Of a DNA stretch of 37,459 nt, positions 11,979 to 29,244 are shown in pieces. Location of the stretch: the NCBI RefSeq assembly GCF_016888135.1, contig NZ_JACSWB010000134.1, positions 1 through 37,459 of the forward strand, given 5' to 3'. The position numbers and the translations under genes are program-made. Every line of letters starts with the position of its first letter. Within the stretch, counting starts at the first letter, position 1. Source of the DNA: Leptolyngbya sp. CCY15150 (lineage in GTDB: Bacteria; Cyanobacteriota; Cyanobacteriia; RECH01). The notes under the pieces are model-generated. The model saw only the letters and a program-made list of their open reading frames with translations. It had not been told where the DNA came from and searched no databases.

Positions 11979-12777
11979 GTTATCAGTCGACATGAACGAA
12001 TATCAATCTTCTGTTACTCTCAATTCCCGATGAGTGGCTGAATATTGTCTAATTCTTTTCTTATTTCTCTTATCTTTTCACCACTGTCCTTCTCAGACTT
12101 TATTATTCGATTAATTTTCCGAAGAGCCGTTTGCAACTGTATTCTTTCACGTGCCAAGGAAGTGAGATCATTCACGGGAGTTGATCAGAAAGCTTCTGTC
12201 AAAACTTCTGTTCAACTCGCCAGGATCAGGATGCTTTAGGTTTTCCTTAAAGAATCTTTAAAGAACTAGTGACCTCACCCACGCTTGATCTGCCTGAGAT
12301 GCTTTTCCTCTCGCTGCTTTTCAACAACGAGGCTTTGCAAGGTTTGCGAAGAAGAGCCGTTAGAATCAATCTGTTTGGGAGATTGCTGTGTCATGGGTAA
12401 TACCTCAAAGAATAGTGGATTCCATCATTCGGATAGCTAGACTATCCAGAACAAGTCAAATTTAGTACAATTGAACTATCGCAGCATAGCGCGCGAGCAC
12501 CAGATAGATCAAATGTACTATTCGGTGGTTTTAAGCCAAATTCTGGGCTTCGGGGGCGCAAAAAAGATTTTTGTTGAGTCTGTTGCTATTTTTCTTGGCT
12601 TAATTCCTGAATCCGGCTAGAAAGCTGCATTCGAAGGCAATGCCTTGGGATCAGGTTTTGTTTAGATGCATAGGGCAGTACTAAACAAACGTGAAGAGTC
12701 GCAAGGGTTGGGGGCATGAGCTGTTAACTTGGCTAAGTTGTAGATACCGCACTCTATCTGAGACCCAAGTCTTGCCC
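11979..12777. other. About 0.8 kb gap with no convincing gene
   Basis: This is a low-GC stretch between the protease gene and the DISARM-like island. It holds only short open frames: a 64-codon + frame at 12045-12239 with unlikely composition, a 39-codon minus frame at 12275-12394 (listed separately) and a 35-codon + frame at 12513-12620. The last is hydrophobic and lacks a ribosome site. No IS end, tRNA or clear terminator was recognised. The promoter of the downstream island should lie here, but no convincing -35/-10 pair stood out. Confidence 0.5.
12275..12394 (-). CDS. Possible 39-residue hydrophilic protein
   Basis: An ATG at 12394 (minus strand) has GAGG eight bases upstream. The frame encodes MTQQSPKQIDSNGSSSQTLQ then a charged tail ending QIKRG and TGA. 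It is divergent from the DISARM-like genes. The ribosome site and hydrophilic composition are the only support; it may be the truncated start of a lost gene. Confidence 0.25.
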   Translation of the reverse strand: MTQQSPKQIDSNGSSSQTLQSLVVEKQREEKHLRQIKRG

Positions 12778-15700
12778 ATGATCCGCAACAGCAGACCAGA
12801 GACCGCCTCTTCCTCCGTGCCCCAGGTGGGTATGCTCGCCACCCTGCGTAATCGTCGAGCACTGATCGCCGCTGTCGAGCCTTTCGGCTCTGGCGTTGAG
12901 GGACAAACTCATCTAGTGCGGCTGGAGTACATCGATTCCGATGGCCCGCCTGAAGACAGTCTGATCTGGGAGCGAGAAGTCAACAAAACCCTGCTTGAAC
13001 CGACAGCTCTACCGCCCATTGAAAACTCAGACCCTGTGCCCTTGTCCGAGTACGATGCCCTGCTGCGGGCGACCCGGTGGACAGCGCTTACTCCGTTTTT
13101 GACCTTCGATCGCACCTCTGCCCAAGTCCAGCCCCCCATCTCCTCCCCCTTCTTTGGTGCCGTCCAGGTCGAAGACTTTCAGCTGGTGCCGCTGCTCAAG
13201 GCGCTTCAGATGCCGCGTATCTCCCTCTTGCTGGCGGATGACGTGGGGCTGGGCAAAACCGTAGAGGCAGGACTGATTCTGACTGAGCTGTTGCTGCGTC
13301 GTCGCATTCGGCGGGTGTTGATTCTCTGTCCTGCAGCGCTGCGGCAACAGTGGCAGCAGGAAATGAAAACCAAATTCTCCCTGTCCTTTGATGTGATCGA
13401 CCGGGCCGAGACCCACACTCTACAAAAGCGATTGGGGCTCGATGCCAATCCTTGGCGAACGTTTCCGCGCATTGTCACCTCTTACCACTACCTGCGGCAG
13501 CCCGATGTGTTAGAGCAATTTCGTGCCGCCTGCCAGCAGCCGGAGGGGTCAGCCCAGCTACCCTGGGATTTACTGATTGTGGATGAATGCCATAATTTGA
13601 TGCCTTCCAACTTTGGGGAAGACAGTGATTTGTCGAAGATGCTGCGGGCGATCGCCCCCTGGTTCGAGCACAAGCTTTTCCTCAGCGCTACCCCCCACAA
13701 TGGTCACACCCGCTGTTTTTCAGGCCTGCTAGAGCAGCTTGATCCGGTGCGTTTTACCCAAACCAGCGACTTCACCCCCGACATGCAGCAGCGCATTCAA
13801 GAGGTGGTGATTCGGCGGCTAAAAAAAGAGATTAACGCTCTGGACGAGCAGGAAGGTCGCACGCCCCGCTTCTGCCGGCGGCTGACGGAGCCCGTGCCCC
13901 TGTATTTCTCCAGGGAGGAGCGGCGGCTCTCTGAAGCGTTTGCAGCTTTTCGCAGTGCGGTTAAACGTTTAATTGCGGCCTCTAGCAAAACCGATCAGCT
14001 TGCAGGAGGGTTTGCAGTGGAGGTGCTGAATAAGCGCCTGCTATCGTGCCCCTACACCTTTGCCAATTCCTGGTTTCGGTTTCGGGAAGGCAACGCCCAG
14101 GATGAAGGGGCTGAGGTGGGCGCGGTGCAGGCCGCTCGACGGGCTACCCAAGAAGACCTAGACGATGACCAAGAGGCCGAGGGTCGCTTCCAACATGCAG
14201 CCAAAACCACCGGGGCCTGGTTTCAGCCTTTGATTCCCCACCTTCAGGCGGAAATTACAGCGGTGGATGAGGCTCTAGACATCCTTAACCTTTCTCCTAA
14301 TGCCGAGGAGAACCTACCCTTGCCGAGCATAGATGAACGGTGGGAGAAGCTGCTTGACACCATCGAAAAGTACCTGCGGGTGGGCACCCAGTGGAAAGGA
14401 TCTGACCGGATTGTGGTTTTTACTGAATATAAAACCACCCTCGATTATCTGAGGCGACGACTGCTGGAGAGCTATGCCCATCAACCCGAAGTGGTGCGCG
14501 AACTCTACGGTGGTATGGACGATCGCCAGAGAGACGAGGTTAAGCAGGCCTTTAATGACCCCGACAATCCGGTGCGGGTATTGTTGGCGACTGATGCCGC
14601 TTCCGAAGGGCTCAACCTGCAAGAAACGGCCCACATCGTTTTGCACTACGACATTCCATGGAACCCAGCTCGCCTAGACCAGCGCAATGGCCGTCTCGAT
14701 CGCCATGGTCAGGCCCAGGATGTATTTGTGCTCCACTTTGCCAGTGAGGATGATGCTGACCTGAAGTTTTTGGCGCGGGTGGTGGAAAAGGTCAACACCA
14801 TCCGGGAAGAACTAGGTTCTATGGGTGAGGTGTTTGATGCTGCGTTCCAGCGGCGCTTTGTGGAACTAGAGGACACCGATCGCGTCCTGCGCGGCCTAGA
14901 TGATGCCGTGAACTATCGCCGGGGGCGATCGCGCATTCCCAGCTCTGAAGAGATCGCAGCGGGGCAGGCGGCAGCAGCAGCTCTGCATACCCTAGAGCAG
15001 GAGCTAGACCTCACCCCCACCACCCTGGCCCAAACCCTAGAAATTGCCTTGGGCATTGGGGTAGGTCTACCCCGGTTTGAAGCGCCCGACGACCAGGGTC
15101 GCCTGCGATTAAAGATGCCCATTCCCCCCAAATGGGATGCGGCAGTCGATGACCATCTGCGGCTGGGCAGCACCCATGGATACCAGGGAGCACTGCCTGC
15201 CATTGTGTTTGATTCCCAGCACTTTATCCAGATCAAAAACAATCGCCCCGTTTACCGCCCCGCCAAAGACACGGTACTCATGCACCTGGGGCATCCCATG
15301 TTTCACCAGGCGTTGGGCATGTATGCCCGTGCCCGATTCCCCGGTGGTGGTGGGGATGCTGGCCAGAGCAGTCGCTGGACGGTGCGCTATGGCCTGGTGC
15401 CCGAGGGAGCTGAGGCGCTGTTGTTGCTAACGGTGGAAGAACTGGCGGTGAATGAGCTGCGAGAGCCGTTTCACCATTGGGTGCGCACGCTCCGCTACCC
15501 AATCCAAGGGGGTGAGCTAGGGGAGGCATTGCCCCATCTGGCGGCGGGTTTAGACGTGGTAGAGCCGCAGGCGGTGGATCGGGTGGCGGCAGACCAGGCT
15601 AGCGACCTGTGGGATGAGATTAAGCCCGATGTGCAGGTGGTGTTGAGGCAGCTGATTGAATCGCTGACCAGCCAGATTCAATCAGAGCTGGCCAACCGCC

Positions 15701-16059
15701 AGGCAATTGCTTTACAGGACGAGAGCGATCGCTTTAAGCATCGACTCAAAGAGGTGGAGCGGGCGATGAAAGAAACCACCCTACAAAAGCTGGAGAAGGA
15801 GCGCGACAAACTGCTGGAAGATATGCAGCAGCTCTCGCTGATTCCCGACGAGCGGCGATCGCAGGAAGACCGCCTACGAGATTTAGACGATGAGATGAAA
15901 CGGCGGCGGGGCCACTACCAAGACTTAGCGGAGCAGTTGAAAAAGGAGCAGACCCGCGTTCTCACCCAAATTTTACCCAAGCGCTATACCCTGCGCGGCA
16001 TAGCCCAGGTGTTTCCTGTTACGGTAGAGATTCGCTTACCAGAGATTCCTAGGATGTAA
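12778..16059 (+). CDS. drmD: DISARM-type SNF2-like helicase DrmD
   Basis: A 1093-residue protein from ATG 12778. The open frame extends to a GTG at 12691, but family members begin just before the (Q)VGMLATLRNRR block, so I prefer the ATG. The SNF2-type SF2 motor shows Walker A DDVGLGKTVEAG (Lys160), a DECH box (Asp269), the motif III segment LSATPHNGHT, and a C-lobe with VVFTEYKTTLDYL, LLATDAASEGLNLQ and QRNGRLDRHGQ (motif VI). The last 170 residues are a long coiled coil. Family knowledge: DrmD is the signature gene of class 1 DISARM and is normally next to the adenine methylase DrmMI, as here. It is a DNA translocase of an anti-phage complex. SNF2 proteins of related R-M-like systems are the alternative, and the neighbours favour DISARM. 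Confidence 0.82.
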   Translation: MIRNSRPETASSSVPQVGMLATLRNRRALIAAVEPFGSGVEGQTHLVRLEYIDSDGPPEDSLIWEREVNKTLLEPTALPPIENSDPVPLSEYDALLRATRWTALTPFLTFDRTSAQVQPPISSPFFGAVQVEDFQLVPLLKALQMPRISLLLADDVGLGKTVEAGLILTELLLRRRIRRVLILCPAALRQQWQQEMKTKFSLSFDVIDRAETHTLQKRLGLDANPWRTFPRIVTSYHYLRQPDVLEQFRAACQQPEGSAQLPWDLLIVDECHNLMPSNFGEDSDLSKMLRAIAPWFEHKLFLSATPHNGHTRCFSGLLEQLDPVRFTQTSDFTPDMQQRIQEVVIRRLKKEINALDEQEGRTPRFCRRLTEPVPLYFSREERRLSEAFAAFRSAVKRLIAASSKTDQLAGGFAVEVLNKRLLSCPYTFANSWFRFREGNAQDEGAEVGAVQAARRATQEDLDDDQEAEGRFQHAAKTTGAWFQPLIPHLQAEITAVDEALDILNLSPNAEENLPLPSIDERWEKLLDTIEKYLRVGTQWKGSDRIVVFTEYKTTLDYLRRRLLESYAHQPEVVRELYGGMDDRQRDEVKQAFNDPDNPVRVLLATDAASEGLNLQETAHIVLHYDIPWNPARLDQRNGRLDRHGQAQDVFVLHFASEDDADLKFLARVVEKVNTIREELGSMGEVFDAAFQRRFVELEDTDRVLRGLDDAVNYRRGRSRIPSSEEIAAGQAAAAALHTLEQELDLTPTTLAQTLEIALGIGVGLPRFEAPDDQGRLRLKMPIPPKWDAAVDDHLRLGSTHGYQGALPAIVFDSQHFIQIKNNRPVYRPAKDTVLMHLGHPMFHQALGMYARARFPGGGGDAGQSSRWTVRYGLVPEGAEALLLLTVEELAVNELREPFHHWVRTLRYPIQGGELGEALPHLAAGLDVVEPQAVDRVAADQASDLWDEIKPDVQVVLRQLIESLTSQIQSELANRQAIALQDESDRFKHRLKEVERAMKETTLQKLEKERDKLLEDMQQLSLIPDERRSQEDRLRDLDDEMKRRRGHYQDLAEQLKKEQTRVLTQILPKRYTLRGIAQVFPVTVEIRLPEIPRM

Positions 16060-16526: not shown

Positions 16527-19500
16527 ATGCCACCCACCCACTTCCACACACCCACAACCCACGACGACTGGTGGATCTCCCTCAAGCATGGGGGGCTGCT
16601 GATTGCGCCGTCAAAGCTGGAGGAATTTTTTGTTTCCAGCCAGCTAGCGCCCCTGTCGCGCTACGTCGAAGATAAGCTGCGGCGCGATGTTACCCGCTTG
16701 CGGGATGGCGACCAGAGCCAGCTTGGCACCCTGCTGGATACGGTGCTGGAAGAGGTGCTGGGGCTCTCTAAGGACTTTTGGCAGAAGGGCACCTCCGTCG
16801 AGCGTGATTGGGCACAGCAAGCCATTACCCGCGAGCAAATTAAGCCCCGTCGGGTTTGGCAAGATGATCGAGGTGCTGTCCTTCCTGTATTTGTGTCCGA
16901 TGGCCAGGAGCGGGGCGGCCAGGCGGCACGCCTGGGCATTGGCCGAGGCAAGCGGGCCGTATCGCGGGTGATTGAGTGGCTGCGAAAGGCAGATCAAAAG
17001 GTGGCGTTGCTCACCAATGGCTACCAATGGCGGCTCATCCATGCCGGGGCAGACTACGATGCCTGGTGCGAGTGGGATATCAACCTGTGGTTTGAGGAAG
17101 GGCGACCGGGGCCGCAGGTGACGGCCCTCCGGCTGCTGCTGGGGGAAGCGTCCCTTCGTCCCGAAAAGGCTGAGGTGCCCAGTCCGTTGATGGCGGCGAT
17201 TCAGTCATCGCGTCAGGGGCAGGCAGAACTGTCGGATGTATTGGGGGAACGGGTACGGAAAGCGGTAGAGCTGCTGATTCGGGAGTCTTCGGCAGCGTTG
17301 GATGAAATGTTTGAGCGGGAGTCGGGGGTCGGGCGGGAGTCGGGAGTCGGGAGTCGGGAGTCGGGGAATGTCCCAGAATTATCGGGAACTGCGGGTTTGG
17401 AGCGAGGGTATCACGCTGGTGGAGATGTGCTACCGCCTGACCAAAGCGTTTCCGAAGGAGGAAATTTACGGGATGACGTCTCAGATTCGGAGAGCAGCCG
17501 TGTCAGTGCCAGCGAATATCGCCGAGGGCTACGGACGGGAGAACCGGGGGGAGTACATTCAGTTTCTGAAAATAGCCCAGGGATCTCTCAAAGAATTGGA
17601 AACCCACCTAATCATCTCGGAACGGGTACAACTGGCGACACCTCAGACCATCGCCCCGATCATGACTCAGTGCGAGACGGTGGGGAAAATGCTGCGTTCT
17701 CTAATCCGCACCCTACAACAGAAGCAATAACGGGAGTCGGGAGAAGTGCGGGAGTCGGGAATCGGGAGTCGGGAATCGGGGCAGAACAAAATCCCGACTT
17801 ACGACTCCCGACTTACGACTCCCGACCTATGACTCCCGTTTCTCCCAAAGACATTTACATCGCCGCCAGCCGTATCATCATGCGTTGTGTGGTGATTTTG
17901 TTCGCTGAGGCCCGTGAGCTGTTGCCTCGGGAAAATCCGATCTATCACAATTCTTACGGCATCCAGGGGTTGCGAGAGCAGTTAGACCGCATGGCTGGAG
18001 GGCGAGCCTCGGAGCGGTTGCGGAATCGCCATAGCGCTTGGCCTAGGCTGCTGGCGTTGTTTCGGTTGGTGTATGAGGGGTCGGCCCATGAGGCGATTCC
18101 GGTGCCGCGCTATGGGGGTGGGTTGTTTAGACCAGGCTTGGATGCCGCAACCGACCCCGTATTACGTGCCCTAGCTGCTTTAGAGAACCCGATCTATGGG
18201 CCATCGGATGCGGTGGTGACTCAAATTTTGGATCTGCTGTGTCGTAGCAAGGTAAAGGTGCGCCAGGGGCGGCGGAATACTTGGGTAGAGGCTCCGGTAG
18301 ACTTCTCCGATTTGTCGTCGGAGTACATTGGCATTCTCTACGAGGGCCTGCTCGATTTTGAACTGCGCCGGGCTGCTGCCGATGATCCGATGATTTTTCT
18401 CAACCTGGGCGATCAGCCTGCCTTACCCCTGACGCGGCTGGAGGGGATGGATGATAATGCGCTGTCATCGCTGGTGGAGAAACTGAAGCAGGCCGCCAAG
18501 CCCAGCGCTAGCGAAGAGGAAGACGCTGGAGAGGAAGACGCCGAAGCCGAGGAGGAAATTGAAGCCGAGGCCGAAACGGAGGAGGAAGACGCTGAGCCAG
18601 ATGAGATCGAAGATAGTCAGGATGACCTGATTCAAAACCTGCGGGAAAGGGCTCATCAGTGGGCCATCCGGGCGGTGAAGGCAGGCAAGCTGGTGAATAA
18701 GCCCCGCAGCAAGAAGGCGGATGCCCTAGCGGCCTATGAACAGCAGGTGAGTAAGATGGCCGATCGCCTGATTGCTAAAACTATCTTGCCAGGGGAATGG
18801 TTTCTGGTGCGTTGGGGCGGTACCCGCAAGGGTTCAGGCACGTTCTATACGCGACCACAGTTGGCGGTGCCGACGGTGCAGCGAACGTTAGAGCCGTTGG
18901 TGTATGAGAAGGTGGGAAGGGCGGGAGTCGGGAATCGGGAATCGGGAATCGGGGCGGAACATGATCCCGACTTACGACTCCCGACTTACGACTCCCGACC
19001 TAACGACTCCCGATTCCCCAAATCTCCCGCCACCATCCTCGCCCTCAAAGTCTGCGATCCCGCCTGTGGCTCGGCCTCCTTCCTCATTGCCGCTCTGCGC
19101 TACCTTACCAATGCCCTGTGGGAAAGTCTCTTTGCCCATGGCTGGCTGATCGAAGATGGCGATCAGATTCGGGCGGGCATCCCGGATGATGCTCAGCCGG
19201 AGTGGTTTGTGGAATGTGTGAAGAACCTGCCGCTGACGGTGGAGAAGGCGGAGGAATATTCCAAGCCCCGGCTGAAGCGGTATGTGGTGGAGCGCTGCAT
19301 CTATGGAGTGGATATTAACCCGCTGGCGGTGGAGCTGGGGCGGTTGGCGCTGTGGGTGGAGACGATGGACAGGTCGCTGGCCTTTAGCTTTCTCGACCAC
19401 AAGATTAAGCCAGGAAATTCGCTGGTGGGCTGCTGGTTTGATCAGTTTCAGGATTACCCGATTATGGCCTGGGAGCGGGAGGCCGGGGATGCTACCCACA

Positions 19501-22349
19501 AGGGGGTGCATTTTGGACAAAAGGTGTGGACGAAGGAAATTAAGCGCCTCCGCAATGACATCGTTAAAGAGGAACTGCGGGAACTGCTGGCGGGGGGCGT
19601 GCAGCTCTCAATGTTTGAGAATCGGCTGATTCAATTGCCAGAGCAAACCCACGACGAGCTACAGACCACGGTGGAAGCCATTCACATGGCGGTGCTGAAC
19701 CCAGAGCAGCAGGCAGAGGCTTATGACCAATCGGTGCAGCAAAAGCAGGCGCTTCAGGAGCTTGAATGGGCGTTTGATTGTTGGTGTGCGGTGTGGTTTT
19801 GGAAAGGAAACGACATGGAGCTGTCGCCCACGCCAATGCAGTTTGTCGATCCGTCGCCGGAGGTGAAGGCGGCGGTAGATCGGGTGGCTCAGGAGTATCA
19901 GTTTTTCCATTGGGAGCTGGAGTTTCCTGATGTGTTTTGTTCCCCGGAGGCCGTTTTTCCGACTCCCGACTCCCAACTCCCGACTCCCGCAATCCCCGGA
20001 TTCGATGCCATTGTGGGCAATCCTCCGTGGGAGATTCAAAAGCCCAACTCTAAGGAATTTTTCTCGAATATTGACCCGCTGTATCGTACCTATGGCAAGC
20101 AGGAGGCGCTGAATTATCAACGGCAATATTTTGAGGCTGATCCCACTGTTGAGGAAGATTGGCTGGCCTATTGTGCGCGGCTAAAGGCGTTGTCGAACTG
20201 GAGTAAGTATGTTGCCTATCCTTTTGGGGATGATGAGGCGGCGGGTAGCAGATTTTCGCTATCGCGGCGGAAGGCGGAGGCAGAACAACTGGCGACGGAA
20301 TGGCGCAGGCAGCGGGCTAAGCGAAAGGGCTATAGCGATCCAGAGCATCCGTTTCGCTATCAGGGATCGGCGGATGTCAATACCTACAAGATGTTTGCAG
20401 AGCTGGCCCACGCCCTAACCCGTGAGGGGGGACGGTTTGGGCTGATTATTCCGTCAGGAATCTATACCGATAAGGGATCTGGTTCACTGCGCAGGCTGTT
20501 TCTTAACCGTTGCCAATGGACGCACCTCTACGCATTTCAGAATGAGCGGTTTATATTTAGCGCTATTGACCATCGCAACAAAATGGTGATCATCAGCGTG
20601 AATAAGGGTGGCCACACAGAATCCATCGCCACCCGCTTTCGGTTGGGGCCAGGGGATTCGCCTGAGGCCCAAGAATTGATGACCGATGCTCTAGATGATG
20701 CCCGCTTTTTGTCGGTACCTGCGGCGCAAATCAAGCGCTTTAGCCCCAACACAGGCGCTCTGCTAGAAGTTCGCACCGATCGCGACCTCAAGATTCTCGA
20801 AAAGATGTACGCCAATGGCGTGCTGCTGGGCGACGATAGCCCCCAAGGCTGGGGCATCCAGTACGCCACCGAGTTCCACATGACCAACGACTCCAAACTC
20901 TTCCCCCCTCGCCCCAAGTGGGAAGCGCAGGGGTATAAGCCGGATGAGTATGGGCATTGGCTGAAGGGGAATTGGCAACCCTATGGAGGGGAGTCGGGCA
21001 TCGGGAGTCGGGAGTCGGGAGTGATTTTGTCGGCAGATGGCAGCGAGGCGATTCACGTTGATGAGGTTGAAGACGTTGCCCTGCCACTCTACCAGGGCGT
21101 GATGGTCGGCCAACTAGAAAGCAACCGGGCTCAGTGGGTGTCTGGTTCTGGCAACCGCGCTATGTGGGACAAAGATTTGCCTCCTGGTTCGTCGTTTGGC
21201 CCACAGTTTCTTATTTCCAAAAAGTCTGTAGTTGAAAACTGTCCTGGCGCATTGCGATCGCGCTATCTTTTTCGCAATATTGCCCGATCTACTGACTCTC
21301 GAACCATGATTGGCAGTCCCGCACCAGGTTTTCCTGCTGGAAATAGCCTCGCGGCGCTATCTCTAGAGACTCAATCAGTCTGGGATACTTGGCTTTTAGG
21401 GAGTATTCTGAGTAGCTACATTTACGACTGGGCACTTCGTCAACGTCTTGGAGGAACCAATCTTAACTGGGTCTTCCTGGATGAGACGTCAACTTTATCG
21501 AGGCAAGAAATGTCGATATTAATAGCGATATTAACTCTACGATTATCTGGCGTAGGTTCTATTTTTTCTCGACAGTGGCTCAATCTAAGAGGAGTGCTAC
21601 CAAAAATTGAAAAACATTACTGGAAACAGCTTTGGGCTGTAACAGCCTATGAAACCCTACGATTAAAGGCAATGCTTGATGCTCTCGTCGCTTATTATTA
21701 CGGGCTAGATAAGACAGATCTAGGCTGGATTTTGCGAGACTGCGACTACCCAACTAGGGATGTAAATGATGGAGCTATCAATCGCAATTTTGACCCAAAA
21801 GGCTTTTGGCGAGTCGACAAAGAAAAAGACCCTGAACTGCGCCACCCCATCCTCTCCCTCATCGCCTTCCACGACCTCAAACGCCTCGGCCTCGACGCCT
21901 TCCTCAACCTCAACGACGGCGAAGGTTGGATGCTACCCGAAACCCTCCGCCTCGCCGACTACGGCCTAGGGCATGACGACCGCGCCCAGGAACCGCAACC
22001 CGTCGCCGCTAGAATTGGGGCAGAAACGGCAAAACTTTGGAATGCGGTCGGGGCAGAATCAGATCCCGACTCCCGACTTACGACTCCCGACTCCCGTCCT
22101 AGCCACTTACGACTTACGACTCACGCCCAATATCGCTTCCTCCCCTGGCAACTCCAAGGCACCCCCGAAGACTCCTGGGCCGAATGCGAAATGCACGCCG
22201 AAAACCTGCGCCGGCTGCTGGGTACCCCAACCACGGAAATCGAGGACGAGTCCCCCCCCGACTCCCAACTCCCGACTCCCGATTCCCGGCCTACTCCACA
22301 ACAGCTCAACCTCATCCCCCCCGACGAAGAACAACTCAACCTCTTTTAA
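16527..22349 (+). CDS. drmMI: Giant PglX/DrmMI-type DNA adenine methyltransferase carrying in-frame repeat insertions
   Basis: A 1940-residue protein, several hundred longer than typical relatives. The N-terminal part (about 1-260) resembles type IIG/PglX specificity-nuclease-like regions. The core has IYIAASRIIMR, SAM-binding motif I VCDPACGSASF (Asp844) and catalytic motif IV IVGNPPWE (Asn1165), giving the N6-adenine (gamma) class. An acidic run lies near residues 660-695. The C-terminal third is the likely target-recognition part. Low-complexity inserts such as GVGNRESGIGAE and PDLRLPTYDSRP occur twice, near residues 410-435 and 800-825. Shorter ones precede NPPW and lie in the C-terminal third. 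All come from GGGAGTC/GACTCCC arrays that keep the frame. The first insert also holds a separate gene (17368-17730). The protein ends EEQLNLF, a beta-clamp-type pentapeptide. Family role: self-marking methylation, and possibly activity regulation, in DISARM or BREX. The name drmMI rests on the adjacent drmD. Confidence 0.85.
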   Translation: MPPTHFHTPTTHDDWWISLKHGGLLIAPSKLEEFFVSSQLAPLSRYVEDKLRRDVTRLRDGDQSQLGTLLDTVLEEVLGLSKDFWQKGTSVERDWAQQAITREQIKPRRVWQDDRGAVLPVFVSDGQERGGQAARLGIGRGKRAVSRVIEWLRKADQKVALLTNGYQWRLIHAGADYDAWCEWDINLWFEEGRPGPQVTALRLLLGEASLRPEKAEVPSPLMAAIQSSRQGQAELSDVLGERVRKAVELLIRESSAALDEMFERESGVGRESGVGSRESGNVPELSGTAGLERGYHAGGDVLPPDQSVSEGGNLRDDVSDSESSRVSASEYRRGLRTGEPGGVHSVSENSPGISQRIGNPPNHLGTGTTGDTSDHRPDHDSVRDGGENAAFSNPHPTTEAITGVGRSAGVGNRESGIGAEQNPDLRLPTYDSRPMTPVSPKDIYIAASRIIMRCVVILFAEARELLPRENPIYHNSYGIQGLREQLDRMAGGRASERLRNRHSAWPRLLALFRLVYEGSAHEAIPVPRYGGGLFRPGLDAATDPVLRALAALENPIYGPSDAVVTQILDLLCRSKVKVRQGRRNTWVEAPVDFSDLSSEYIGILYEGLLDFELRRAAADDPMIFLNLGDQPALPLTRLEGMDDNALSSLVEKLKQAAKPSASEEEDAGEEDAEAEEEIEAEAETEEEDAEPDEIEDSQDDLIQNLRERAHQWAIRAVKAGKLVNKPRSKKADALAAYEQQVSKMADRLIAKTILPGEWFLVRWGGTRKGSGTFYTRPQLAVPTVQRTLEPLVYEKVGRAGVGNRESGIGAEHDPDLRLPTYDSRPNDSRFPKSPATILALKVCDPACGSASFLIAALRYLTNALWESLFAHGWLIEDGDQIRAGIPDDAQPEWFVECVKNLPLTVEKAEEYSKPRLKRYVVERCIYGVDINPLAVELGRLALWVETMDRSLAFSFLDHKIKPGNSLVGCWFDQFQDYPIMAWEREAGDATHKGVHFGQKVWTKEIKRLRNDIVKEELRELLAGGVQLSMFENRLIQLPEQTHDELQTTVEAIHMAVLNPEQQAEAYDQSVQQKQALQELEWAFDCWCAVWFWKGNDMELSPTPMQFVDPSPEVKAAVDRVAQEYQFFHWELEFPDVFCSPEAVFPTPDSQLPTPAIPGFDAIVGNPPWEIQKPNSKEFFSNIDPLYRTYGKQEALNYQRQYFEADPTVEEDWLAYCARLKALSNWSKYVAYPFGDDEAAGSRFSLSRRKAEAEQLATEWRRQRAKRKGYSDPEHPFRYQGSADVNTYKMFAELAHALTREGGRFGLIIPSGIYTDKGSGSLRRLFLNRCQWTHLYAFQNERFIFSAIDHRNKMVIISVNKGGHTESIATRFRLGPGDSPEAQELMTDALDDARFLSVPAAQIKRFSPNTGALLEVRTDRDLKILEKMYANGVLLGDDSPQGWGIQYATEFHMTNDSKLFPPRPKWEAQGYKPDEYGHWLKGNWQPYGGESGIGSRESGVILSADGSEAIHVDEVEDVALPLYQGVMVGQLESNRAQWVSGSGNRAMWDKDLPPGSSFGPQFLISKKSVVENCPGALRSRYLFRNIARSTDSRTMIGSPAPGFPAGNSLAALSLETQSVWDTWLLGSILSSYIYDWALRQRLGGTNLNWVFLDETSTLSRQEMSILIAILTLRLSGVGSIFSRQWLNLRGVLPKIEKHYWKQLWAVTAYETLRLKAMLDALVAYYYGLDKTDLGWILRDCDYPTRDVNDGAINRNFDPKGFWRVDKEKDPELRHPILSLIAFHDLKRLGLDAFLNLNDGEGWMLPETLRLADYGLGHDDRAQEPQPVAARIGAETAKLWNAVGAESDPDSRLTTPDSRPSHLRLTTHAQYRFLPWQLQGTPEDSWAECEMHAENLRRLLGTPTTEIEDESPPDSQLPTPDSRPTPQQLNLIPPDEEQLNLF
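17316..17366. repeat. STRR heptamer array (GGGAGTC), left flank of nested gene
   Basis: About seven copies of GGGAGTC, some imperfect, stay in frame inside the methyltransferase and end two bases before the nested gene's ATG at 17368. The final GGGG may serve as its ribosome site. Confidence 0.85.
17368..17730 (+). CDS. Four-helix-bundle protein (23S rRNA IVS / bAvd family) nested inside drmMI
   Basis: A 120-residue protein, MSQNYRELRVWSEGITLVEM onward, ending TAA at 17728-17730. It has the family hallmarks in order: YRELRVW, a helix with YRLTKAFPKEE, IYGMTSQIRRAAVSVPANIA, EGYGR, EYIQFLKIAQGSLKELETHL. This is a full-length member of the family first known from intervening sequences in bacterial 23S rRNA and from diversity-generating retroelements (bAvd). 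It lies wholly within the methyltransferase gene, on the same strand but in another frame. The methyltransferase frame also stays open through it, reading a Ser/Gly/Asp-rich peptide. GGGAGTC arrays flank both sides, and GGGG lies just before the ATG. Inference: an IVS-like insertion into a protein gene. Whether both products are made is unknown. Confidence 0.9.
   Translation: MSQNYRELRVWSEGITLVEMCYRLTKAFPKEEIYGMTSQIRRAAVSVPANIAEGYGRENRGEYIQFLKIAQGSLKELETHLIISERVQLATPQTIAPIMTQCETVGKMLRSLIRTLQQKQ
17731..17839. repeat. STRR hairpin repeat, copy 1 (right flank of nested gene)
   Basis: GGGAGTC/GGGAATC units (17731-17789) are followed by a short spacer and inverted GACTCCC and CTTACGACTCCCGA units (17802-17839). 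The two halves can form a long imperfect hairpin. About 95 bases are nearly identical to 18921-19019. Confidence 0.85.
18921..19019. repeat. STRR hairpin repeat, copy 2
   Basis: This has the same arrangement as copy 1: GGGAGTC/GGGAATC units, a spacer GGGGCGGAACATGAT, then inverted CCCGACTTACGACT units. It is in frame inside the methyltransferase, about 12 codons before SAM motif I. Differences from copy 1 are a few substitutions in the arms and spacer and a one-base indel near the 3' end. Confidence 0.85.
19958..19999. repeat. STRR array just upstream of motif IV codons
   Basis: Five or so GACTCCC-type units encode TPDSQLPTPA and insert directly before GFDAIVGNPPWE, that is, in the loop leading to the catalytic motif. 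The frame is kept. Confidence 0.8.
20988..21023. repeat. STRR array in the methyltransferase C-terminal third
   Basis: GGGAGTC and GGGCATC units encode GESGIGSRESGV within an otherwise conserved-looking region, left of an AT-richer block (about 21190-21830). Confidence 0.8.
22045..22127. repeat. STRR hairpin-like repeat, diverged copy 3
   Basis: It starts GCGGTCGGGGCAGAATCAGATCCCGA, like the centre of copies 1 and 2, followed by GACTCCC and ACTTACGACT units. The left arm is mostly missing. The methyltransferase stays in frame across it. Confidence 0.75.
22255..22289. repeat. STRR array near the methyltransferase C-terminus
   Basis: CCCGACTCCCAACTCCCGAC units encode PPDSQLPTPDSRP, about 15 codons before the terminal EEQLNLF. 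Confidence 0.8.
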
Positions 22350-22637: not shown

Positions 22638-23216
22638 ATGAATGCTTACACTATCGACCTCAGCCCAATCGCCCGTCTCGACGCCACCCAGTTCGAGCAA
22701 CTTTGTGCTGCCAACCCCGAGATCAAATTTGAACGCACCCCCACCGGAGCCCTCGTGATTATGTCCCCCACAGGCGGCGAAACGGGTAACCGCAACATTG
22801 AAATTGCGGCTGATTTTGTCATTTGGAATCGTCAAAGCAAGCTGGGTTATCTGTTCGATTCCTCCACCTGCTTCAAATTACCCGGCGGTGGCGATCGCTC
22901 TCCTGACGTTGCCTGGGTCGAAAAATCACGCTGGGACGCCCTCACCCCAGACCAACGCCGGAAATTTCCGCCCCTCTGTCCTGATTTTGCCCTGGAACTC
23001 GCCTCACCCAGCGATAACCTTGCCACCCTCCGCGCCAAAATGCAGGAATACCTCGACAGCGGCCTGCGCCTGGGCTGGTTGATTAACCCGCAAGATCAAC
23101 AAGTGGAGATCTATCGACCGCAACAGCCACCCGACTGGGTCGCAACCCCCAGCACCCTCAGCGGCGAAACCGTTCTACCTGGCTTTGAACTCAATTTGGC
23201 TTGGCTCTGGTCGTAA
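22638..23216 (+). CDS. Uma2-family PD-(D/E)XK endonuclease
   Basis: A 192-residue protein. It shows the Uma2 layout: helical start (LDATQFEQLCAANPEIKFER), the LVIMSPTGGETGNRN block, SPDVAWV with the active-site Asp, FALELASPSD with the Glu, then LRAKMQEYLDSG with a Lys and the LGWLINP strand. The length is normal for the family. Uma2 genes are present in many copies in cyanobacteria and their role is mostly unknown; they are restriction-endonuclease-like folds and often travel with mobile DNA. Here it sits inside the DISARM-like island, but it could be a passenger. Confidence 0.9.
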   Translation: MNAYTIDLSPIARLDATQFEQLCAANPEIKFERTPTGALVIMSPTGGETGNRNIEIAADFVIWNRQSKLGYLFDSSTCFKLPGGGDRSPDVAWVEKSRWDALTPDQRRKFPPLCPDFALELASPSDNLATLRAKMQEYLDSGLRLGWLINPQDQQVEIYRPQQPPDWVATPSTLSGETVLPGFELNLAWLWS

Positions 23217-23499: not shown

Positions 23500-26400
23500 A
23501 TGTTGAATCCCATCGTCTACACCGAGAAAGTCGTCAGCGATTTTCTTCGCTACCAGCTCACCGCCTACCCCTTCGCCGACACCAATCTCTACGAGCAGAT
23601 GCGAAACCTGCTCAACCTAGAAACTACCCGCTCCACCCCCCTACTTAAAGGCCCCTACATCAGCCTTAGTCGAATCTTTCAGCAAGGAACCACCGTAGAC
23701 GATCTGATCCAATTGGGGATTTTCCATCCCTTCATGAAACAGCTAATCCCGTATCCCGCCGTCTACGGGCACCAAGAAACTGCCATTCGCGCCATCCACC
23801 AAGGCAAAACTACCCTCGTTTCCACCGGCACTGGCTCCGGCAAAACCGAGTGCTTTCTCTACCCCATCATTAGCCACTGCCTCAACCTGCGCGACCAAGG
23901 CGCACCTGACGGTATCGCCGCCGTCATCGTTTACCCGATGAACGCCCTAGCCGAAGACCAACTAGGCCGCCTCCGGGGGCTACTGGCGGGCACCGGCATC
24001 ACCTTCGGTATGTATGTCGGCAAAACCCCCGAGCAAACCTCCCAAGCCTCCGGCCTGCGCCTTAAACCTGGAACCTCCAGAGCCGACTACGAAGCAGCCA
24101 CCGCCCGCGCCCAGTGCGAAAAACGCCCTGACCCCGTCTTCCCCGCCGAAGAACGCGTCTCCCGCGAAGCCATGCGCGAAAAGCCTCCCCGCATTCTGCT
24201 CACCAACGTCAAACAGCTAGAGCTGTTGCTTACGCGCCAGCGGGATATCTCTCTCTTCGACAACGCCTCCCTAGACTTTCTCGTCTTCGACGAAGCCCAC
24301 ACCTTCAGCGGCGCAAATGGGGCAGAGACTGCCTGCCTGATCCGCCGCCTGCGCACCTTCTGTGGCAAATCCCCCACTGAAACCGTCTGTATTGCTACCT
24401 CCGCCACCATCGCCGACCCCAACACCCAGACAGGGCTAGCGGTAGCCCAGAACTTTGCTACCCGATTCTTTGGCGTGGCTAAAGACCAAGTGGCCCTAGT
24501 AGGCGAGCAATATCAAGATGATGTGTGGTCGCCCCAGCGCCACCTCCCCCAGCCACTCACCGCCGACCCCGCTACCCTGCTGCAATACGTCCTCGCCGCC
24601 GTTGAAAAAGATGACGCAGGCCCCTCCGTTAGCCACATCTACCGCCAAATTACCGGCGTCAGCCTCGATCCCCACCAGTGGGAAGACCAACTCTACGATG
24701 CACTAGCCGCCAACGAGCTGGTCTACCAACTCACCGTCGCCCTCCACAATCCCCGCCACCTCACCGACCTGCTGCGCCAGCTTGAGACCATTATTAATCG
24801 CCCCATTACCGAAGAAGAAGCGCTGATCTGGCTGGCCCTGGGGGCTGCCTCTCGCAAGGATGGACGCCCCCTGCTGCGCCCTGTGGTTCACGGCTTTGTA
24901 CGCGGTGTTGGCGGTGCTGTGGTTACCTTCCCAAAAGACCAAGATCGCCCTAAGCTGTGGCTCTCCGCCGAAGATACGGCAGGTACCAACCAGGACGATC
25001 TGTATCGGCTGCCGGTGTTGACCTGCAACACCTGCGGTCAGCACTACTTTTCCCACTGGGTGGCTGACCTTAAGCTCACCGACAAACATCCCTCTGGTGG
25101 CCAAGCCCATGGTGATAGCATCCTCTGGGAACCCCTTGCCGCAGAACTAGAGGGCGATCGCCTGCTTTTAGTCGATCGTCTAATCACCCAAGACGACACC
25201 GACGAAGACACAGCCCCCCGCAGCCATCCTCGTTCGACATCCCCCATTCATTTCTGTCGAGCCTGTGGCACCCTTCACTCTGAGACGGGCGATCGCTGCG
25301 GTAGCTGCGGCCGCAAGGGAAAATTAGTGCCGCTGCTGGCGGTGCGCCAAAACCCCAAGCATCCAGGAATGCTCGCGTCCTGTGTAGCCTGTCAGGCCGC
25401 AGGGCGCAGCTCCTTTGGACGCTACCGAGAACCTGCTCGCCCCATCCGAGCCACCACCGTCTCCGACGTGCATGTGCTGGCGCAGAATATGCTCCACCAT
25501 GCCGAGCGTCGACGGCTGCTAGTCTTTGCCGACAACCGCCAAGATGCAGCATTCCAGGCAGGCTGGATGCAAGACCACGCCCGCCGCTATCGCCTGCGCA
25601 GTCTGATGTACGACCAGATGAGCACTGGCTCCATCTCCATCGGTGATCTGACCGCCCGCCTTGATGTGCTGCTCGATGGTGATGACGACCTTAGCCGTTC
25701 CCTAATTCCAGAGGTGTGGCGAGTCCACCGCAAAGAGGCTGAAGGACTTAAACATGCCGAAGAGCGCAAGCGATTTTTGCGCATTCAGGTGCTGCGCGAA
25801 ATTACCACTGGGGTGAAACAGCGCATTGGCCTAGAGCCTTGGGGCCGCCTACACATTGACTATCGCGGCCTCACCACCGACTTGCCGTTTATCCAACACT
25901 GGGCACCCAGGTTGGGACTGCCCGCCGCCGACTTGGTGAATGGCATTGCGGCACTGCTGGATATTACTCGCCGCAATAATATTTTGCTAGATCGTGAAGG
26001 CCAAATTTTCTCTAAAAAATGGAAAGAAGGCGACTTTGAGATTCAGCGGGGCTACATGCCTATTTTGGTTGGCGTTCCTAGGGGGCTAAAACTCACCCGC
26101 GATGCCGCAGATAACACATCCCGCGTGCAGCAGTGGCTCAGCCCCAAGGGAGACACTGTGCCCCGCCAGGCCGCCCGCAGATGGGGTGTCTCTCCAGAAG
26201 ATATGGATGTCTTCTTTCAGGAGCTCTGGTATTGCTTGAAGGATGAGCTGAAACTGCTGGTGCCTAGTGTCTTAAAAAATGCCTGGAAGCAGACCCTTAA
26301 AGGGTGTGACGGGGTTTACCAACTTGATGCTGATAAGCTACGGATTACGCCTGGGCAGGGCGTTTACCGCTGCAATATTTGTCGCCGGGCCCACCCGCGG

Positions 26401-29244
26401 CCCACGCCGCGCATGGCCTGCATTACCTGGCGCTGTGATGGCACCATCGCCTTTGAGCCCGAGAGTGCTGACGATTATGACCTACGCGTGTTAGACGAGC
26501 AGTTTGAAATGCTGCGGCCCGAAGAACATTCAGCCCAAGTGCCCTACGAAACCCGCGATCGCATCGAGCGCATCTTCAAAGGCGACGGTGAACTGATCAA
26601 TGCCTTGGTCTGCACTCCCACCCTCGAAATGGGCATCGATATTGGCTCCCTAGATTCTGTCCTTATGCGCAACGTACCGCCGCTTCCGGCCAATTACTGG
26701 CAGCGTGCAGGCCGTGCGGGTCGTCGTCACCGCATGGCCGTCAACCTCACCTATGCCCGAGGGGCCAGCCACGATCGCTCCTATTTTGCTGATCCCCTGC
26801 GCCTCTTAGATGGGCTGATCGAACCCCCCAAGCTCAATCTCCGCAACACCCTGATGGTGGGTAAGCACGTGCGGGCAGCGGTGCTTACCACGCTACACCA
26901 GATGGCCCGCACCGGCCACAGCACCCCCCAGGGCGATCGCGACACCATTCAGACCATCCTAGAGACCTGCTTCCCCGGCCAGGTCAAAAACTACCTGTTT
27001 GATGACAGTGGTTTTGTGCGCTCCGAGCCTCTGGATGTCAGCAGCCTAACCGAGCTGATTCAAACCTATGCGATCGCCCTCTACAAGCATGTTGATCAAG
27101 TTTTTGTCCAGGCTTGGCCCGAAGGCGATGCCATGGCTGTCAAAGAAGATGAGCTCAAGCGCCACATTGTCTCCATGGGCGATGAGCTAGCCAATGTCAT
27201 TCTGACCCTGTGGAAACGCCTGCAGTGGGCTATGGGGCAGCTCCGGCGGCTCAGTGAAGAACGCATCCTCAAGGGGGCACTCGATCCGGAAGATGATGCC
27301 TTGTTTCGCCGCTGCGATCGCCTAGTTAAACGCCTCAAAGGGCAGACCTTGAGAAAGGGCAGCGATGCTGAAGGGGTTGACGACACCATCACCTACAGCG
27401 TTCTCGCTGCCGAGGGTTTTCTCCCCGGCTACGGTCTTGATGGCGGTCATATTCAGGGGACAGCCCAAATGCCCCGCAGCATCACCTGGATGTCAGACTT
27501 TGACCTGCCCCGTCCACCCAGTGTAGCCCTGCGGGAATACGTCCCTGGCAATTTGATCTACGCCAACGGCCAGCGCTTTGTGCCCCGCTACTTCCACCTA
27601 GAACCCGAAGATCCTACCTACTTCCAAGTCGATATTGCCAGCGAAGCCATTAAGGAAATCGGCAGCGGGCAGCAGCTCTCGTCCAGTTTATCTTCAGCGT
27701 CCATCAAAGCCGTCCCCATGTGCGATGTGGATCTGTCCCACCAGTCCAACATCTCCGATGAAGAAGACAACCGCTTCCAAATGCCGGTCACCATCCTGGG
27801 CTATGAGCAAGGGCGGCACAGCGGCGGTAGCGCCTTTCAGTGGAAAGACCAAACGGTTCAACTACGCCGAGGGGTTCATCTACGATTAGTCAACGTTGGT
27901 CCTGCTAACCTGGTACGCACCGGAGACCTAGGCTATACCGTCTGCGTGGTTTGTGGCCGCAGCCGATCTCCCTTCACCTCAGACCATGATCTAGAGCTGT
28001 TCAAAACCGATCATGAAAACCGCTGCCGCACCAAAATTGAGCCTGTAGGCTTTTTCGCCGATGTTATTGCCGATGCTCTCAGTCTTCAGGACTGCGAAAA
28101 CCGTGAAGTGGCCTACAGCGTGATGGAAGCCCTTCGCCATGGAGCCAGCAACGTTTTAGAAATGGAGCTAGAAGACCTCCAAATCCTCACCATCGGTCAT
28201 TCCGGCAGTGAGCAGGTAGACGTGTTGCTCTACGACCCTATGCCAGGTGGTTCGGGATTGCTAGAGCAACTGTTGGCTAAGTGGACAGCGGTGGTTGAAG
28301 CGGCCATCTTAGTGGTCAGTGATTGCACATCTCGCTGCCAAACCGCCTGCATCGACTGCCTGTTTAACTTCCGCAATGCTTACTACCACAGACACCTTAA
28401 TCGGCATACAGCGCTGAAAAAACTGCTGCAGTGGGAAGATATCCTCACCCAAAGCCACCCCATCCCAGCCAACCTGCCCAGGCATGAAGAGGATGATGAG
28501 CACCGTCCGGTCAACCATGCTGAGGCGTTGCTCCAGACCATGCTGAGACGAGCTGGTTTTCCCGACCCCATCCCCCAGCACAGCATTGACTTGGGCAGAC
28601 CTTTGGGCACCACTATCCCAGATTTTTTCTACCCCGATCCCACCGGTATCAAGGAAGGCGTCTGTATTTATCTCGATGGTATGAGCCGCTCTCTCCACGG
28701 CAATGCGGATCGCCAGGCCAAAGACCAAGCCATCCGCGATGAGCTGAGCAACGAAGGCTATGAAGTGATGGCTATTCCCGCAGGTGATTTAGACGATCGC
28801 GATCGCATGGCAAAATATTTCTTTCGCCTAGGCAGAATTTTATTAGACAGGCCCAAGGCTGATGCCATTCGCAATTCGTCAGATTGGTTTGTTACCCAAC
28901 CGGAGGTTTCTACCCCTGCTGCATCCCCCTCAGACGGTTCAGGCAATACTGACTTACAAGAAACCCTTGAACTCTTTGAACCTGAGTGGAGATCCTTGAT
29001 CAAAGCCCTGGCTCAGCACGGTGATATTCAAGTCGATAGTGGCAGCGATGTGGAAGTCAATGGTCAAGTTGTCGGCACTTATACGGCCCAAATCTGTCGA
29101 GGCACTGCTCTCATTTACCTGGTCGATGCCAGAGCTGACGATGGAGACGATCTGCGATCGGCCCTAGCTGCCCAAGGCAAATCAGTTCTCACCATTAACC
29201 CCACAAGCCCTCAGTCCATAGACACCATCCTCCAGGCGCTGTAG
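23500..29244 (+). CDS. DEAH-box helicase with DUF1998 and C-terminal nuclease-like domain (DrmA/DrmB- or DruE-like)
   Basis: A 1914-residue protein. The SF2 motor has STGTGSGKTE (Lys115), DEAH (264-267), a SAT motif, LVCTPTLEMGIDIGSLD and QRAGRAGRR. Zinc-binding pairs occur at CNTCGQHYF, CRACGTLHS...CGSCGRK and CNICRRAHP. A DUF1998 module follows, with LLYDPMPGGSGLLEQL and the cysteine cluster CTSRCQTACIDCLFNFRNAY. After that, PDFFYPD, VCIYLDG and KDQAIRDELSNEGYEVMAI follow the order of Vsr-like (DUF559/MTES_1575) nucleases, then comes a 120-residue tail. In classical DISARM the helicase (DrmA) and DUF1998 (DrmB) are separate; here they are one chain, as in Druantia DruE or MrfA-type proteins. 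Inference: the principal DNA-translocating effector of the island. The next gene starts 8 bases downstream. Confidence 0.82.
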   Translation: MLNPIVYTEKVVSDFLRYQLTAYPFADTNLYEQMRNLLNLETTRSTPLLKGPYISLSRIFQQGTTVDDLIQLGIFHPFMKQLIPYPAVYGHQETAIRAIHQGKTTLVSTGTGSGKTECFLYPIISHCLNLRDQGAPDGIAAVIVYPMNALAEDQLGRLRGLLAGTGITFGMYVGKTPEQTSQASGLRLKPGTSRADYEAATARAQCEKRPDPVFPAEERVSREAMREKPPRILLTNVKQLELLLTRQRDISLFDNASLDFLVFDEAHTFSGANGAETACLIRRLRTFCGKSPTETVCIATSATIADPNTQTGLAVAQNFATRFFGVAKDQVALVGEQYQDDVWSPQRHLPQPLTADPATLLQYVLAAVEKDDAGPSVSHIYRQITGVSLDPHQWEDQLYDALAANELVYQLTVALHNPRHLTDLLRQLETIINRPITEEEALIWLALGAASRKDGRPLLRPVVHGFVRGVGGAVVTFPKDQDRPKLWLSAEDTAGTNQDDLYRLPVLTCNTCGQHYFSHWVADLKLTDKHPSGGQAHGDSILWEPLAAELEGDRLLLVDRLITQDDTDEDTAPRSHPRSTSPIHFCRACGTLHSETGDRCGSCGRKGKLVPLLAVRQNPKHPGMLASCVACQAAGRSSFGRYREPARPIRATTVSDVHVLAQNMLHHAERRRLLVFADNRQDAAFQAGWMQDHARRYRLRSLMYDQMSTGSISIGDLTARLDVLLDGDDDLSRSLIPEVWRVHRKEAEGLKHAEERKRFLRIQVLREITTGVKQRIGLEPWGRLHIDYRGLTTDLPFIQHWAPRLGLPAADLVNGIAALLDITRRNNILLDREGQIFSKKWKEGDFEIQRGYMPILVGVPRGLKLTRDAADNTSRVQQWLSPKGDTVPRQAARRWGVSPEDMDVFFQELWYCLKDELKLLVPSVLKNAWKQTLKGCDGVYQLDADKLRITPGQGVYRCNICRRAHPRPTPRMACITWRCDGTIAFEPESADDYDLRVLDEQFEMLRPEEHSAQVPYETRDRIERIFKGDGELINALVCTPTLEMGIDIGSLDSVLMRNVPPLPANYWQRAGRAGRRHRMAVNLTYARGASHDRSYFADPLRLLDGLIEPPKLNLRNTLMVGKHVRAAVLTTLHQMARTGHSTPQGDRDTIQTILETCFPGQVKNYLFDDSGFVRSEPLDVSSLTELIQTYAIALYKHVDQVFVQAWPEGDAMAVKEDELKRHIVSMGDELANVILTLWKRLQWAMGQLRRLSEERILKGALDPEDDALFRRCDRLVKRLKGQTLRKGSDAEGVDDTITYSVLAAEGFLPGYGLDGGHIQGTAQMPRSITWMSDFDLPRPPSVALREYVPGNLIYANGQRFVPRYFHLEPEDPTYFQVDIASEAIKEIGSGQQLSSSLSSASIKAVPMCDVDLSHQSNISDEEDNRFQMPVTILGYEQGRHSGGSAFQWKDQTVQLRRGVHLRLVNVGPANLVRTGDLGYTVCVVCGRSRSPFTSDHDLELFKTDHENRCRTKIEPVGFFADVIADALSLQDCENREVAYSVMEALRHGASNVLEMELEDLQILTIGHSGSEQVDVLLYDPMPGGSGLLEQLLAKWTAVVEAAILVVSDCTSRCQTACIDCLFNFRNAYYHRHLNRHTALKKLLQWEDILTQSHPIPANLPRHEEDDEHRPVNHAEALLQTMLRRAGFPDPIPQHSIDLGRPLGTTIPDFFYPDPTGIKEGVCIYLDGMSRSLHGNADRQAKDQAIRDELSNEGYEVMAIPAGDLDDRDRMAKYFFRLGRILLDRPKADAIRNSSDWFVTQPEVSTPAASPSDGSGNTDLQETLELFEPEWRSLIKALAQHGDIQVDSGSDVEVNGQVVGTYTAQICRGTALIYLVDARADDGDDLRSALAAQGKSVLTINPTSPQSIDTILQAL

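Follow-up and report, generated by a model that had tools for sequence, protein, structure and literature searches.

Probable dual coding of IVP gene cassettes inserted into anti-phage DNA methyltransferase genes

Sequence comparisons across cyanobacterial and Chloroflexota genomes make it probable that cassettes carrying an IVP gene (S23/IVP family, four-helix-bundle proteins) have entered permissive loops of anti-phage DNA methyltransferase genes on repeated occasions, in the sense direction and with a shift of one phase, and that host and cassette would there be dual-coding by read-through. The case described here in most detail resides in a stretch of 37,459 nucleotides of Leptolyngbya sp. 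CCY15150 (the window), whose relevant features are collected in Table 1.

The nested gene, its host and the origin of the cassette

Table 1. Features of the methyltransferase locus (positions within the window; L018 to L021 are loci with homologous genes)
Feature	Position	Strand	Evidence or remark
SNF2 helicase, DrmD-like, upstream neighbour	12691..16059	+	PADLOC DrmD 2e-199
Host ORF, Eco57I-type DNA methyltransferase, DISARM DrmMI/type IIG-like, 1940 aa, intact	16527..22349	+	PF07669 5e-20; PADLOC
Whole insertion in host frame, host residues ~264-437	17316..17837	+	missing from two relatives
5' heptamer array (GGGAGTC units), left arm of insertion	17316..17367	+	absent in L018, L019
Candidate Shine-Dalgarno GGAG of IVP, within last array unit, 7 nt before ATG	17357..17360	+	sequence
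IVP/four-helix-bundle gene, nested in phase +1	17368..17730	+	PF05635, TIGR02436; dN/dS 0.033 vs L020
Second direct heptamer array (GGGAGTC/GGGAATC), directly after IVP stop	17731..17783	+	sequence
Spacer and inverted heptamer array (GACTCCC units), right arm of insertion	17784..17839	-	sequence
Heptamer-array hairpin without IVP, site B, just before motif I DPACGS	18922..19018	+	L021 has IVP here
In-frame heptamer array, host gene	19959..19989	-	sequence
In-frame heptamer array, host gene	20989..21022	+	sequence
In-frame heptamer array, host gene	22064..22096	-	sequence
In-frame heptamer array, host gene	22257..22288	-	sequence
Large DEAD/MZB helicase, DruE/DrmA-like, downstream neighbour	23500..29244	+	Pfam and PADLOC profiles

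The 120-aa product of the nested ORF matches PF05635 (E=1.1e-37, 105 of 106 profile positions, 129 bits against a cut-off of 33.8) and TIGR02436 (8e-37, 125.7 bits against a cut-off of 24), i.e. it belongs to both families above their curated cut-offs and over its full length. The solved structures 2gsc (3e-25) and 2rld are relatives by sequence match. The ORF begins at the second position of a host codon (phase +1). The preliminary description of this DNA had recognized a full-length gene of the intervening-sequence (IVS) type, placed in another frame of a methyltransferase gene that stays open across all 363 bases, bounded by STRR arrays, and residing in a protein-coding host instead of a 23S rRNA gene; all of this is borne out by the profile matches, by the uninterrupted host ORF and by the GGGAGTC arrays on both sides. 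The label "bAvd-type" applies to a related four-helix fold; the bAvd profile (3e-5, 24.9 bits) falls under its 40-bit cut-off. The DivGenRetAVD profile (20.7 bits) likewise falls under its cut-off of 80 bits, and neither a reverse transcriptase nor template/variable repeats were found among the scanned neighbour genes. The GGGG said to precede the ATG is present, but the GGAG listed in Table 1 is the better candidate for a Shine-Dalgarno motif. The genome of the window (G000) also contains a second, weak PF05635-like ORF (L002, G000:C289:149573-149860; 1e-4, below the cut-off).

The host protein is matched by the PADLOC models REase_MTase_IIG (1338 bits) and DrmMI (1e-127), the type IIG profile scoring above DrmMI. 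Together with the DrmD-like helicase upstream, the locus thus contains the drmD and drmMI genes of a DISARM class 1 system, while the large downstream helicase is matched better by DruE than by DrmA. Between the methyltransferase and this helicase lies a gene of the Uma2 family (PF05685; window 22638-23216), and farther downstream (window 31765-32615) there is a 126-bp tandem repeat (~6.8 copies, 83% matches), possibly a minus-strand gene for a repeat protein. An AlphaFold model of host residues 1-720 has a mean pLDDT of 40 and predicts no secondary structure for the insert, which is suggestive of a loop at a confidence too low for proof.

Two relatives of the host protein, L018 (1717 aa) and L019 (1754 aa), align with it on either side and lack host residues ~264-437. 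Because the whole array-IVP-array block is missing from both, the block is an insertion and not an ancestral part of the methyltransferase, the case that had been named as contrary to the original idea. At this position (site A) the DNA between the anchor motifs measures 54-63 nt when empty, 564 nt in the window and 483 nt in L020, which also carries its IVP gene there. In L021, an IVP 95% identical to that of the window occupies a different array site (site B) of the homologous gene. Site B is native in L018 and L020, holds arrays without an IVP in the window, and has a different array in L019. The placement of a near-identical IVP at site A or site B indicates that the cassette has moved between array sites of one gene family. 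A target-site duplication of the window cassette is not definable at sites A and B, as the flanks of the empty relatives are too diverged, and neither a transposase nor a transposition mechanism was found for this cassette.

Throughout the 5.75-Mb genome of the window, an 18-mer of GGGAGTC units (one mismatch allowed) occurs only in the host gene; it is restricted to one contig in G280 and spread genome-wide in G263 (152 matches). GGGAGTC arrays in the genome of L020 are likewise limited to this gene or contig. The host gene was probably transferred together with its arrays. Their confinement in the window and L020 genomes also shows that having an IVP was not enough to spread arrays there.

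IVP cassettes occur in other surroundings as well. Genome G323 contains about ten near-identical cassettes (L321-L328, L111) in dispersed elements with terminal inverted repeats (TIRs) of the sequence CTGAYGTTACGCA; these elements measure 430-870 bp between the TIRs and have 7-bp target duplications of the TTANTAA type. Being enclosed in them, cassettes can also travel as passengers. An IVP gene duplicated on two Calothrix plasmids (L319, L320) was rejected as a mobile copy, given that gene order points to a shared plasmid backbone and that no element ends were found. A phage collection searched for IVPs yielded no match.

Recurrence and the fate of the two reading frames

IVP genes were collected from the class to which the window belongs (390 genomes), from its nearest relatives among the GTDB genomes and from one class of Chloroflexota (199 genomes). 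Twenty-two of the 242 distinct IVPs (two of them from the separate Chloroflexota survey) are nested in sense orientation within ORFs of at least 380 aa, in the same manner as in the window, and all 22 are in phase +1. Without exception, the hosts are DNA methyltransferases of cyanobacteria and Chloroflexota, with about six insertion sites: three (A, B and C) in Eco57I/IIG/DrmMI proteins, and others in DUF1156/HmaB (site D), type III Mod (site E) and PglX (L130) proteins. At site D, the empty loop of ~18 homologues is 75-99 nt long (about 81), and in six homologues it is replaced by 492-588 nt comprising arrays and an IVP gene, always in frame. In the phylogenetic tree of the IVPs there are at least 11 changes between the nested and the free state. 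Long antisense ORFs over several IVP genes of Rhizobiales (L046, L078, L080, L082, L088) were set aside as likely products of chance in GC-rich DNA.

Site D, studied in the DUF1156 methyltransferases L230-L259, is also a hotspot for other small palindromic repeats, which are present in frame in L240, L247 and L254.

One PADLOC model of PglX (PDLC02522, positions 294-395) matches the host-frame, or shadow, peptide of the IVP gene of L211 (residues 4-105; 4e-7). Annotated PglX proteins thus apparently carry a nested IVP too, and the match suggests that the seed proteins of this model contain the shadow peptide and probably hold an unannotated nested IVP gene.

In the window copy considered alone, an open host frame is unremarkable (P about 0.04 after resampling of synonymous codons), but over all nested copies it is remarkable: 20 nested IVPs have no host-frame stop against 77.1 expected from the same resampling, a contrast that does not amount to 22 independent trials because nested copies share ancestry. 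The ratio of observed to expected stops is 0.87 in 167 other IVPs. When loci were recognized by methyltransferase homology on both flanks, with openness ignored, 21 of 22 were open and continuous (the exception is L228), which lessens, but does not abolish, the bias of a set gathered partly by openness. The second sense phase (phase 2) has a probability of being open close to 0 in most nested IVPs; this explains why only phase +1 is found and indicates that insertions were filtered for readability.

The two frames are under different kinds of selection. In the comparison of the window with L020, the IVP gene has a dN/dS of 0.033, and the host has 0.059 upstream of it and 0.22 downstream; IVP values range from 0.03 to 0.11, i.e. 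purifying selection on the IVP is strong. Differences in the IVP gene fall mainly at its own third positions. Conservation of the shadow peptide does not exceed that of the unused phase; it has been kept open but not conserved in sequence. Selection thus acts on the IVP as a protein and on the host frame for openness, and the shadow peptide resembles a linker that is tolerated. Synonymous divergence (dS) of the IVP gene is about half that of its flanks, which is compatible with a double constraint. Both frames are thus open, and both proteins are under selection, as expected of dual coding.

According to the mechanism that we propose, the host mRNA would be translated through the cassette, and the methyltransferase would gain a disordered linker of ~115-175 residues, rich in Gly, Ser, Asp and Arg. 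For the IVP, ribosomes would start internally on this mRNA, close to where the 5' array ends, and the purine-rich array units could furnish a Shine-Dalgarno sequence. A clear motif of this kind precedes only 12 of the 22 nested genes, which speaks against the model; among free IVP genes it precedes 84 of 207. The arrays, stop-free in the phases used, would provide homology for moving cassettes between sites. Survival of a cassette would depend on the methyltransferase remaining readable and on the carriage of defence methyltransferases between genomes. By analogy with bAvd, the IVP itself may be expected to act as an oligomeric nucleic-acid binder.

Heptamer arrays and competing explanations

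The association of IVP genes with heptamers extends beyond the nested copies. Arrays of period 7 are present upstream (within 160 nt) of 32% of the IVP genes, downstream (within 200 nt) of 37% and on either side of 49%, against 1.6% in control stretches and 9.6% (either side) for other genes of the same loci; arrays of other periods are nearly absent near IVPs (some have period 8). On the IVP strand, 44 of 49 upstream arrays are purine-rich and 59 of 66 downstream arrays pyrimidine-rich. Where both sides carry arrays, the units match as inverted copies (at most one mismatch) in 71% of the loci and in 11% after loci are swapped. Such matched inverted arrays bracket IVP genes in cyanobacteria, alphaproteobacteria and Chloroflexota, and in these three bacterial groups the genes may form a general repeat-partner system. 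This pattern can be counted in favour of a bolder and rather doubtful reading, namely that IVPs are the cognate proteins of heptanucleotide arrays, in a REP/RAYT-like manner: they might bind the arrays or help to copy and move them, with one branch dual-coded in anti-phage methyltransferases that it may regulate.

It had initially been suggested that the nested gene could be a tolerant mobile element, a dual-coding gene or an intervening sequence removed from the RNA. The first two readings are supported jointly, the former by the relocation and recurrence of the cassette and the latter by the maintenance of both frames. If the third applied, RNase III would cut the stem formed by the inverted arrays and the IVP ORF would be removed, leaving the methyltransferase to be produced from what remains or in two chains. 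The IVSs of 23S rRNA genes are built alike, having terminal inverted repeats and an S23/IVP ORF, and are excised by RNase III (PMC4990558). The termini of the window cassette, i.e. its inverted GGGAGTC arrays, are complementary, with 63 flank-to-flank pairs predicted, and pairing of 9-83 base pairs is predicted in 21 of 23 nested folds, though two folds show none. However, the host frame is open and the phase fixed, neither of which removal would require, and this disfavours it as an obligatory step; moreover, 23S rRNA stays in pieces after IVS excision (PMC4990558), and the same process would cut an mRNA. Removal therefore seems a very unlikely explanation of the cassette as a whole, although it may take place as a side reaction, given the ability of the arrays to pair into a stem like that of 23S IVSs. 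Still less probable is that the methyltransferases are dead and the insertions merely tolerated. Lesions do exist in four nested loci: a host stop and a frameshift in L228, host breaks downstream in L216 and L162, and stops in both the array and the IVP gene of L229. The last of these had been taken for a dead IVP in a living host, an interpretation dropped because the stop in the array is also in the host frame, i.e. the locus has decayed. Against general decay stand the full-length ORF in the window, with a dN/dS of 0.06-0.22 on either side of the cassette, and the ~18-20 nested hosts that are open throughout or up to a contig edge.

Repeat-driven phase variation of methyltransferases is well established, and a unit of seven nucleotides is not a multiple of three, so gain or loss of units could toggle the gene between read-through, an N-terminal fusion to the IVP (minus one unit) and an early stop. 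The arrays directly precede the IVP gene, and outside the cassette the density of heptamer arrays in nested hosts (0.184 per kb) exceeds that in control ORFs (0.0049 per kb) 37-fold; nevertheless, the arrays are short and imperfect, and the nested copies all share the read-through state, so that a switch of this kind appears unlikely. A passive role of the IVP, as a passenger of array recombination in permissive and often-transferred genes that does nothing for its host gene, is a real possibility, if a less than probable one, and is compatible with the dual-coding anatomy. Arrays also occur without an IVP, other small repeat elements occupy the loop at site D, and the genome-wide presence of GGGAGTC in G263 and its confinement in G000 and G280 suggest that the gene brought the arrays in. 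What speaks against mere hitch-hiking is the strong purifying selection on the IVP gene, together with the restriction to methyltransferase hosts in about seven IVP lineages, which is more than permissiveness alone predicts. Repeated insertion followed by read-through dual coding is the reading that we prefer.

Relation to known elements and significance

The cassettes resemble 23S rRNA IVSs in several respects: an ORF of the PF05635 family lies between terminal inverted repeats able to pair, in a tolerant place of a larger gene, and the distribution is sporadic, with horizontal acquisition. They differ in having a protein-coding host that would be read through in a second frame, and ends consisting of heptanucleotide arrays. 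Furthermore, while the S23 ORF of Coxiella burnetii is reported to be decaying, with no product made in vivo (PMC4990558), the nested IVP ORFs are under purifying selection. Tandem arrays of 7-nt units, often in inverted pairs, have been described as cyanobacterial STRRs, as GGGAATC repeats of Xanthomonas and Nostoc (PMC4692102) and as TAACTGA repeats (PMC4679880). No partner gene is named in the passages of these two papers considered here, whereas the arrays described above flank genes of one particular family and are situated in frame within coding sequence; the work on TAACTGA repeats raises the idea that the mobile element might be a protein that binds the repeats (PMC4679880).

Inteins and self-splicing introns likewise place a selfish ORF within a conserved gene, but the IVP element is kept readable rather than removed; the Pfam scan of the host revealed no intein or endonuclease domain. 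REP palindromes and their RAYT genes offer a further parallel, in which a small protein gene is bracketed by inverted repeats that are also found alone. The IVP, however, is a four-helix bundle and not a transposase, and we know of no mobilising activity of such proteins. The bAvd proteins of diversity-generating retroelements share a related four-helix fold, the IVP remaining under the bAvd cut-off.

Both the S23/IVP proteins and the heptanucleotide repeats have long been puzzling features of bacteria, and to our knowledge neither has an accepted function. Reports of nested IVP genes or of an association of IVPs with heptamers were not found in the literature searched, which was not exhaustive. 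The results presented here link this protein family and these repeats to each other and to anti-phage DNA methyltransferases. They also serve as a warning for annotation, since one gene of a nested pair can be missed. The approximately 22 overlapping gene pairs, of several separate origins, form a rare set in which a foreign gene occupies the second frame of a defence gene, and nested cassettes are present in the cultured strains Nodosilinea sp. LEGE 07298, Phormidium sp. FACHB-1136 and Chloroflexus islandicus.
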